DNA from: Myxococcus guangdongensis
Lineage (GTDB): Bacteria; Myxococcota; Myxococcia; Myxococcales; Myxococcaceae
Assembly: GCF_024198255.1 (NCBI RefSeq)
Contig: NZ_JAJVKW010000005.1
Coordinates: 248,001-312,000, forward strand
Reading direction: 5' to 3'
DNA: 64,000 nt
The notes under the pieces were generated by a model. The model had not been told where the DNA came from. It was given only the letters and a program-made list of their open reading frames with translations, and ran no database searches. A program made the position numbers and the translations under genes. Numbering within the stretch: the stretch's first letter is position 1; every line of letters starts with the position of its first letter. Below, one piece after another: positions 55,436 to 57,967 of this stretch.

Positions 55436-56068
55436 CTAGCTGCGCTGCGCGTAGAACTCGACGATGAACGGCTCGTTCACGTCGACGGGAATCTCCTCGC
55501 GCTCGGGCAGGCGCACGTAGCGCATGCCCTCGCCGTCGCCGAGCACCTGCACGTAGGGCGGCACGTTGCGGCCCTTCATGCGCTCGAACGACTCCCGGAC
55601 GATGGTCAGCTTCAGGTGCGCGGGGTGGTACTTCACCTCGCTGCCCGGCTTGACGCGGAAGCTGGGGATGTCCGTCGCGGCGCCGTTGACCTGGAAGTAG
55701 CCGTGGCGCACGAACTGGCGCGCCTGGCGGATGCTGGTGGCCAGCCCCGCGCGCAGGATGAGCGAGTCCAGGCGGCTCTCCAGCAGCTGCAGGAGCACCG
55801 TGCCCGTGTTGCCGGGGGAGCGGCGGGCCTCCATGAACGCGCGCCGGCACTGCTTCTCCAAGAGGCCGTAGTACAGCTTCAGCTTCTGCTTCTCACGCAG
55901 GCGGCGCGAGAAGTCGCTGTTGCTCACCCGCGCCGTGGCGCCGTGCTGGCCGGGCGGGTAGGGCCTGCGCAGCACCGGGTCCTTGTCCGGATCCTTCGCG
56001 GTGATTCGCGAAAGAGGAATCCCCAGTCGCCGGCACATCTTGCCCCTTGGTCCCAAGTCACGCGCCAC
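55436..56068 (-). CDS. rpsD: Ribosomal protein S4, cysteine-poor (zinc-free) form
   Basis: 210 residues, a full S4. The zinc-ribbon end that in Thermus-type S4 holds four cysteines reads [16 protein letters not shown] then [16 protein letters not shown], with one Cys only, so it cannot bind zinc. The body ([17 protein letters not shown]) and the S4 RNA-binding domain (about 95-160) are intact. S4 is a primary 16S rRNA binder. The gene is not in the alpha ribosomal operon, no other ribosomal gene is nearby, and it follows a Fur/Zur-like operator. This suggests a substitute for a zinc-binding S4 encoded elsewhere. The start is GTG 56068, with GGAGG seven bases upstream. Confidence 0.93.
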
Positions 56069-56108
56069 GTCGTGTCCTCCGTGTCCGGCCCGATACTGTC
56101 AGGCACAG

Positions 56109-56137
56109 TTGATTTTGATAATCAGTATCAATATCAA
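56109..56137. promoter_or_regulatory. 29-bp inverted repeat resembling a Fur/Zur box
   Basis: TTGATTTTGATA, five bases (ATCAG), then TATCAATATCAA; eleven of twelve arm positions pair. The core TGATAATCAGTATCA at 56116-56130 differs at one position from the 7-1-7 Fur-family consensus TGATAATNATTATCA. It lies 41-69 bases upstream of the S4 GTG, where a promoter would be, and is strikingly AT-rich for this DNA. No other gene starts within 400 bases on the other side, so S4 is the likely target. Confidence 0.75.
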
Positions 56138-56546
56138 GATCAGTACCGTGAAACCGGCCCGCGGGTCAAGGGGGTCGTGGACTCCGTGTGCGGGACGTTT
56201 CGCGGAGGATGTGGAGGGGAGGGGCCGCGGCGTGGGGCCTGACGGGTTGGGCGGAGGCGTGGCGTGGTTCAAGGCGGGGTCGAGCCGGTTTTGGTAGAGG
56301 CTCAAACGACACCATGGTTGGGTCGGCCCGGGTTTGACGCGTGCTGTCGTGCGGGGTGTCTGTCTTTGCGGATGTTTTCGAGGACAGCGGACACGTGGTC
56401 CATCGAGACACCGAGCGTTGCGATTTGCGTGGGGTTGGTCATTCTTGACGAGGGTGTGTCGGAGCGGGTTACAGCGGCCGATGTTGTGAGGGGTTGCGGG
56501 AAGGGCATAGAGTCGCGGCCCTCCCTTTCCCGGAGAGACTCACAAC
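56138..56546. other. Intergenic region between S4 operator and lipoprotein gene
   Basis: About 400 bases. Near 56340-56480 the sequence is less GC-rich. On the minus strand an open frame of 46 codons (MTNPTQIATLGVSMDHVSAV and on, stop near 56302) has no recognisable family and no ribosome-binding site. GGAGAG lies ten bases before the lipoprotein ATG at 56547. No terminator, tRNA or repeat was seen. Confidence 0.35.
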
Positions 56547-57149
56547 ATGACTGCCTTCAAGAAGCTTGTCTGGGCTTGCGCCGCCGTGTCCCTGTCCGCC
56601 TGTGGTGTTCCCGAGCAGTCCTCGCCCGAGGAGACGTTGGGGGCGCGTGAGGACGCGCTGACCACCAGCTCCTTCGGAGGGTGTAGCTTCACCATCTCCT
56701 CGGCGGTGATTCCCGGGGAGCTTCCGCCGCGCTATGCCATCACCTTGACGCGCGCCGCCTCGGGCACGTGTCCCCACGCGGCGGGCAGCGTGGAGCTGGG
56801 TCGCTCCTACAACCCGCCGCACATCGCCGTGCTGGGGACGGGCGTGGGCCTGGCGACGGCGTACTCGACGAAGGGCTCTCCGAGCGGCAGCGCCAACACG
56901 CAGTGCCGCGTCAATCACATCGACGTGGCCACGCTCGGGAAGGTGCGCGACGACACCATCGTCGTGAACTTCGGCGCGGGCAACGTCCCCGTGTGCAACC
57001 TGGACAAGACGGACGCCGGCGCCACGCTGGTGGTCTACGGGACGAAGACGGGCCCGCTCCCGGGTGAGACGGGCAGCGGCAGCAACTACGTGGCCACGTA
57101 CTACAACTACTTCACCAGCACGACGCCGCCCGTCTACTACGCCTACTGA
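56547..57149 (+). CDS. Hypothetical lipoprotein
   Basis: 200 residues. The lipoprotein signal ends AAVSLSACGVPEQ (lipobox LSAC). The mature domain contains four cysteines (GGCSF, GTCPH, TQCRV, VCNLD) and a repeated aromatic/Thr C-terminus (YYNYFTSTTPPVYYAY). Strand-rich composition suggests a small secreted beta-domain. The first of four lipoprotein genes in tandem on the plus strand, all with spacers of 50-120 bases. Family unknown to me. Confidence 0.72.
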   Translation: MTAFKKLVWACAAVSLSACGVPEQSSPEETLGAREDALTTSSFGGCSFTISSAVIPGELPPRYAITLTRAASGTCPHAAGSVELGRSYNPPHIAVLGTGVGLATAYSTKGSPSGSANTQCRVNHIDVATLGKVRDDTIVVNFGAGNVPVCNLDKTDAGATLVVYGTKTGPLPGETGSGSNYVATYYNYFTSTTPPVYYAY

Positions 57150-57266
57150 CGCAGGCCGTGGGCTCGCGGAGTGTCTGGCTCCGCGGGCCCGCGTGGACGA
57201 GTCGTACTCTGGGTGTGTTAGGCTGACGGGGCAGTACAACCCGAAGAGCCGTCCCTGGAGGCACGA

Positions 57267-57563
57267 ATGCAGGCTGGAAGGTTCATCAGCGGTGCGTTGG
57301 TTGCGGTGGGATTGATGCTGGCTGGTTGTGGTGGTCCCCTGGAGGAGGACCTCGGGGAGCACGAGGCCGCGTCGCGTGAGGGCCTGGTCCCCGACTGCAG
57401 CACGACGTCGGCGGGGACTGTCTATTACCCCTCCGCGACGAGCAATCGCATCGTGGGGTTCAGGGGGTGTGGTTGTGGCTCCTGGACGAGCTGGGGCACG
57501 ACCACGGCGTACTCCCGGTCCACGAATGCATGCATCCCGCCGGTCAGTCCGCCCGAAGCGTGA
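57267..57563 (+). CDS. Small Cys-rich lipoprotein, tandem copy 1
   Basis: 98 residues. Signal MQAGRFISGALVAVGLMLAG-CGG, then an acidic stretch and a compact domain: VPDCSTTSAGTVYYPSATSN, VGFRGCGCGSWTSWGTTTAY and a final TNACIPP. The pattern of YYP/YS, VG, GCGCG, WG..T.AY and last Cys is shared with the next gene. It resembles small bacterial lipoproteins of the DUF6289 type; this comparison is from memory. A GGAGGC ribosome-binding site precedes the ATG. Function unknown. Confidence 0.72.
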   Translation: MQAGRFISGALVAVGLMLAGCGGPLEEDLGEHEAASREGLVPDCSTTSAGTVYYPSATSNRIVGFRGCGCGSWTSWGTTTAYSRSTNACIPPVSPPEA

Positions 57564-57673
57564 GGAAGTGCGTGTCCGTGTGAGTCGACGGCGGCCCGTC
57601 CCGGTGAGTCCCTGGGCGGGCCGTTGTCTGGCTGGCCGACCTGGCTCGGGATTGCGGGTGACTGGAGGTTCGA

Positions 57674-57967
57674 ATGCAAGCGGGAGCGTTGTTTGGCGGT
57701 GCGTTGCTTGCCGTGGGGTTGATGCTGACGGGGTGTGGTGGCCCCGCGGAGGAGGAGGACGGGACGGAGGCGCTCACGTCACGTGAGGCGCTGATTCCCA
57801 ATTGCACGAGCAGTCGCGAGGGCGTCATCTTCTATTCATCGGCGGCACAGACCTCCATGGTGGGGTACACCGGTTGTGGCTGTGGCCGCTGGACGAGCTG
57901 GGGCTTCACGACGGCGTACTCCGCGGTCACGAACCAGTGTGTTCCGCCATCGAGCCCCGAGAGCTGA
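57674..57967 (+). CDS. Small Cys-rich lipoprotein, tandem copy 2
   Basis: 97 residues, clear paralogue of the preceding gene: the signal (MQAGALFGGALLAVGLMLTG-CGG), the acidic spacer, IPNCTSSREGVIFYSSAAQT, VGYTGCGCGRWTSWGFTTAY and NQCVPPSSPES align without gaps over the mature domain. The pair arose by tandem duplication. Both start with an identical MQAG. The leader GGTTCGAATG lacks the good ribosome-binding site of copy 1 but GGAGG lies nine bases upstream. Confidence 0.72.
   Translation: MQAGALFGGALLAVGLMLTGCGGPAEEEDGTEALTSREALIPNCTSSREGVIFYSSAAQTSMVGYTGCGCGRWTSWGFTTAYSAVTNQCVPPSSPES

Follow-up and report, generated by a model that had tools for sequence, protein, structure and literature searches.

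Why would a myxobacterium keep a second gene for the ribosomal protein uS4, missing most of the cysteines of its metal site, behind an AT-rich operator of the Fur family, and which metal would such an arrangement serve? Zinc-driven swaps of ribosomal proteins are textbook material, and the initial annotation of this locus, in the Myxococcus guangdongensis DNA considered here (the window, the whole stretch of 64,000 nucleotides), favored zinc and Zur on the same logic. In this article, I will argue that the feature is real and conserved, that the zinc reading probably misassigned the metal, and that the paralogue is probably a Fur-controlled, iron-sparing replacement for the main uS4.

A second S4 and its lost metal site

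The locus comprises the following features, by position in the window:

55436..56068, minus strand: cysteine-poor uS4 paralogue, 210 aa, GTG start (open reading frame; NCBIfam S4 models above cut-off; alignment with the genome's own cysteine-containing S4)
56076..56080, minus strand: GGAGG, likely ribosome-binding site (by eye)
56109..56137, no strand assigned: 29-bp AT-rich inverted repeat, predicted Fur-type operator, made of a pair of 21-mers that overlap at an offset of 6 bp (56110-56130 and 56116-56136) (sequence)
56140..56145, minus strand: TACTGA, -10-like hexamer adjoining the operator (similar position in 35 genomes displayed; consensus only)
56164..56169, minus strand: TTGACC, -35-like hexamer with an 18-bp spacer to TACTGA (consensus only)

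The paralogue is full length and scores above both NCBIfam bacterial S4 cut-offs (NF003717, 219 against 116 bits; TIGR01017, 200.8 against 177.2 bits), and many invariant residues are common to it and the cysteine-containing (C+) copy. The latter is the other of the two S4 matches in the genome (11.2 Mb in 53 contigs, 99.96% complete) and lies in the alpha operon, 3' of S13 and S11, with all four cysteines (C9, C12, C26 and C31), which means that the window copy is not the sole rpsD. In the alignment of the two, C9 has become Gly, C26 is deleted and C31 is an Asp inside a DPDKD loop while C12 stays, taking the metal-site motif from CxxC...CxxxxC to GxxC...DPDKD; the initial description of a stand-alone S4 without the zinc-binding cysteines was right in that the gene is cysteine-poor and sits outside the alpha operon, and went too far in that only three of the four cysteines are missing. 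In the predicted structure of the paralogue, the mean pLDDT is 68.7 and falls below 50 at residues 1-9 and 25-49, so that confidence is low in just the metal-site region. The C+ copy aligns with the S4 of Thermus thermophilus gap-free through the four cysteines, which are in register.

The paralogue pair itself was already known, and it is the Fur-type operator that is new here. Chen, Roberts and Luthey-Schulten (2009) listed M. xanthus with C+ and cysteine-free C-(IV) forms of S4, the former in the alpha operon and the latter outside it, and detected no Zur site in the vicinity of S4 paralogues, suggesting zinc economy together with a horizontal origin (PMC3087516). Both cysteine pairs are missing by the definition of their C-(IV) class, whereas here Cys12 is kept, as it is in most paralogues; M. 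xanthus (L015) lacks it, as do the most divergent of the paralogues aligned.

A full-length paralogue of at least 50% identity is listed in 39 of the 195 Myxococcota genomes searched, all 39 belonging to one family; this count leaves out a 3' fragment (G139, L127), a 43%-identity paralogue (G082, L128) and three genomes (G137, G113 and G013) in which a second S4 match was counted and is unlisted, and the 14 named loci (L008-L021), which mostly repeat species of the 39, were not added to it. In a tree of 36 rows, 24 paralogue rows split from 12 others with 99/98 support, the placement of the long row L128 being unsure, and in one genome (G079) both S4 copies are C+ by alignment. The fragment in G139 is limited to the last 103 residues, 88% identical, and is apparently a decayed copy. 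One record titled Comamonas sp. (L012, BNCN01000005.1) holds a Myxococcus-type S4 paralogue with its operator and an hmu site (L081), and is probably a mislabeled myxobacterium. Small lipoprotein-like genes adjoin S4 on the plus strand of the window (56547-57967, with starts at 56547, 57267 and 57674), the last two resembling each other; in M. xanthus, a placement of S4 beside the TonB receptor MXAN_6911 was not seen within the 10.6 kb of its locus (L015).

The operator and the genes that share it

The inverted repeat, TTGATTTTGATAATCAGTATCAATATCAA, lies 41-69 bases upstream of the start of the S4 paralogue with a core one base off TGATAATNATTATCA, and in this the initial annotation was borne out, since the repeat is both real and conserved. 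At up to three mismatches, the 15-base core TGATAATNATTATCA has two matches in the window, both at the operator, against 0.02 expected. The operator follows just downstream of TTGACC-N18-TACTGA, and a -35/-10-like pair of this kind, supported at the level of consensus, stands before it in the 35 genomes displayed (L088-L122). In the window and at 14 of 14 named orthologue loci the site resolves into a pair of 21-bp boxes that overlap at a 6-bp offset, an arrangement that has been described for the Fur boxes of Desulfovibrio (PMC545781).

The same pattern recurs elsewhere in the genome. A scan with the S4 core at up to two mismatches gave 19 sites against 2 for a reversed control, and with overlaps merged these amount to S4 and 16 other places, seven of them before iron genes: the hmu operon (small cysteine protein, TonB receptor, HemS/ChuX, periplasmic protein and FecCD), heme oxygenase, a siderophore-interacting protein (SIP), a PepSY protein, a FecCD-type transporter, a TonB receptor and imelysin. 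The remaining nine lie in coding DNA, at a tRNA or before genes without a clear iron tie, or are unread (C22:22297), the surroundings of one further place (C19:135814, L050) having been scanned for operators only. Among the 15 non-S4 places read in ten relatives, further pattern matches lying outside this tally, 11 belong to iron genes (hmu 7, myxochelin genes 2, FTR1 1, TonB receptor 1) and four to an MFS exporter (2), a methyltransferase (1) and a cytochrome (1). The myxochelin genes with a site are those for 2,3-dihydroxybenzoate dehydrogenase and isochorismate synthase, and the myxochelin genes of M. xanthus are repressed by iron (PMC3986340).

An independent test took the Fur consensus of E. 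coli, GATAATGATNATCATTATC, as given in PMC545781, and set its 18 fixed bases against 150-bp upstreams. All 39 paralogue upstreams carry a site with 3 (n=13), 4 (n=25) or 5 (n=1) mismatches and 20 iron-type sites have 2-5; 11 S4 genes of other kinds (L022, L023, L129-L137) have 7-11, and the background, 876 pieces of 150 bp taken from the window minus the operator and from L039-L042 and L141, has 6-12, with 6 in two pieces and none fewer. The 43%-identity paralogue (L128) has 7, which is background level and leaves its site unsupported by this test, and scores 22.5 bits on a 21-bp profile trained on the 20 iron-type sites, S4 excluded. On that profile, which is partly circular as a test because 19 of its 20 training sites were first found with the S4-core pattern (the E. 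coli consensus test is not circular), the 39 paralogues score 29.6-37.8 bits with a median of 34.8, or 27.3-38.0 when the hmu sites are left out of training, and gene groups held out of training themselves score 20.0-39.5 bits. Across 263,590 strand positions of background, one place reaches 17.4 bits and the next 7.5, and the S4 genes of other kinds, eleven in all, lie between -4.4 and -22.6. Two of the training sites precede an MFS exporter and are without a demonstrated tie to iron; by judgement, the training set omits pattern matches ahead of a cytochrome gene (L024, L085) and of a methyltransferase (L084). The weakest of the 39 sites, at 29.6 bits and with the core TGACACTGATTATCA, is that of M. 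xanthus, the species with expression data; in a divergent clade of paralogues (4 genomes, 50-51% identity) the box persists with another sequence and scores 32.9 bits. Taken on sequence evidence, Fur-type control of the S4 paralogue is well supported and I regard it as very probable.

Two small proteins were seen beside such boxes. The hmu hemin operon opens with one (L006:1286-1522, minus strand; a 78-aa ORF, probably 59 aa from an inner ATG) that has CxC and CxxC pairs, is zinc-ribbon-like by eye, matches nothing in Pfam or NCBIfam and lies behind an operator close to that of S4, and an 84-aa cysteine-containing protein with no Pfam match (L044:5037-5291, plus strand) is encoded between a Fur-type box and heme oxygenase.

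Probable iron sparing and the translation alternative

What might a presumably iron-responsive S4 be for? Where there is enough iron, Fe-Fur, the presumed binder, would sit on the overlapping pair of Fur boxes that directly follows the -10-like hexamer and block transcription; where iron is scarce, as in soil or in competition with prey, repression would be lifted along with that of hemin uptake, myxochelin and other iron genes, and an S4 with a dismantled N-terminal metal site would be made and presumably built into ribosomes, allowing new 30S assembly without the Fe4S4 cluster expected of a four-cysteine S4. If the C+ S4 of Myxococcus carries such a cluster, four iron atoms would be tied up in every ribosome, and a cluster-free S4 under Fur is the economy to be expected. 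The cluster was first assigned by the Steitz group and confirmed with long-wavelength data on the Zn-finger of uS4 in T. thermophilus by Rozov et al. (2019; PMC6555806), and a 2021 paper called the function of the small-subunit Fe4S4 cluster unknown (PMC8467113). Given Fur, iron sparing is the likeliest purpose of the paralogue, and quite a probable one; the broader proposition, that myxobacteria remodel the ribosome by iron, with Fur swapping an Fe4S4-bearing uS4 for a cluster-free one, seems to me evenly poised. Counting against iron sparing, the cluster has been shown for Thermus alone and the C+ S4 of Myxococcus could bear zinc, Cys12 is retained in most paralogues, and S4 variants have been read in terms of zinc economy (Chen et al., 2009; PMC3087516).

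The arrangement has known relatives. Like the Zur-controlled cysteine-free paralogues of B. subtilis (S14, L31), M. tuberculosis (S14, S18, L28, L33) and S. coelicolor, it pairs a metal-free paralogue of a cysteine-containing ribosomal protein with an AT-rich operator of the Fur superfamily (PMC3087516); unlike them, the S4 operator is of the iron/Fur type, and the metal is probably the iron of an Fe4S4 cluster rather than zinc. The Fur-regulated swap of flavodoxin for ferredoxin predicted in Desulfovibrio likewise brings in an iron-free protein at low iron (PMC545781), although there the protein replaced is not, as here, a core part of the ribosome. A search for published Fur control of S4, made at the level of titles and the openings of abstracts, found none. 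As far as these literature searches show, there is no textbook case of an iron-driven swap of a ribosomal protein. If true, the iron-sparing response would act directly on the ribosome, and in many bacteria the uS4 with four cysteines would be an Fe-S protein instead of a zinc protein, while species with both forms of S4, the cluster-free one apparently switched by iron, would offer a natural system for studying what the Fe4S4 cluster does. It would also be a reason not to take each ribosomal paralogue that lacks cysteines for a zinc gene.

A Fur-controlled S4 could instead pay its way through altered translation (fidelity, resistance of the ribosome to oxidative damage of the cluster, or predation) with no iron saved, and part of the support for this idea comes from M. 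xanthus. Of its two S4 genes, I take MXAN_3325 to be the one located in the ribosomal cluster, and MXAN_6908, which is not named in the text of PMC3986340, would then be the C- copy. These two paralogues move in opposite directions during development, MXAN_3325 up and MXAN_6908 down, and during predation both rise together with iron-uptake genes and many ribosomal genes (PMC9548883). The shared rise with iron-uptake genes speaks for iron sparing, but because so many ribosomal genes join in, it is not specific to iron. In E. coli, uS4 mutations change accuracy and sensitivity to H2O2 (PMC8141631), which fits a translational benefit. Nevertheless, sparing is the simplest account of the loss of a metal site, and I consider a purely translational benefit unlikely.

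Zinc loci and the Zur reading

That the S4 paralogue spares zinc under Zur, as C- forms of L31, L33, S14 and S18 do elsewhere, follows the classic logic for cysteine-free ribosomal proteins, and a handful of bases can be all that separates a Fur box from a Zur box. The genome also encodes three Fur-family proteins, one of them divergent; none scores above its NCBIfam cut-off, and the Fur model is the best match for all three, for the third weakly. Zinc economy has, as noted above, been proposed for S4 itself. The loci where a Zur site would be looked for nevertheless tell against this reading, because the S4-type repeat was found neither at the znuA locus (L039, 16 kb; best Fur-profile score -1.5, and no L33-type operator either), nor at three second-S14 loci (3 of 10 genomes; -0.7 to -4.1 over loci that reach ~1.5 kb upstream, one ~0.2 kb, so that the promoter may lie outside), nor upstream of C- L33 (at most 7.2).

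The genome of the window has one S14 match (with the first 150 of 167 candidates scored), one L28 match and two for L33, one of the latter cysteine-free and overlapping a CobW-type GTPase gene. Eleven C- L33 operon loci share another conserved element, ACGCAACTNAGTTACA-like, whose profile, which scores its own training sites at 27-40 (in-sample), does not exceed 11.7 on S4 upstreams. Site by site, the likeness of this element to the Desulfovibrio ZUR consensus (PMC545781) is weak, at 2-4 mismatches of 14 when one chance place in the window has 3; stronger evidence is that related genomes conserve it. Nor does C- S4 strictly track C- L33 across the genus, where the matches listed for 27 genomes give both in 10, S4 only in 8, L33 only in 1 and neither in 6, with S4 and a partial L33 in G146 and an S4 fragment in G139. 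I thus rejected Zur as the regulator of S4, and with like sites before iron genes and a fit to the E. coli Fur consensus, the zinc control first favored for this gene is not supported; Fur, which had been left open, is what the evidence favors, together with iron as the metal, the Fur-family operator standing as described, and zinc sparing under Zur I would call quite unlikely. Weaker still, and very improbable, is an extraribosomal role of the paralogue, such as regulating iron genes by binding RNA, which the stand-alone gene and the known autoregulation by S4 might suggest but which sits poorly with a full-length protein above curated ribosomal S4 cut-offs and with many invariant residues common to the C+ copy.

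The zinc loci yielded observations of their own. Where a CobW-type (COG0523-like) GTPase gene follows cysteine-free L33 (L140:1495-1659, minus strand; L142-L151; L166), the conserved ACGCAACTNAGTTACA-like element in front is a candidate myxobacterial Zur box, and three relatives (L150, L151 and L166) have lost 9-12 residues in frame from the interior of the cysteine-free L33, at about the same place. The third, divergent Fur-family protein (L005:1423-1866, minus strand) is a candidate Zur, with a 23.8-bit L33-type match ~0.5 kb upstream (L040:7386).
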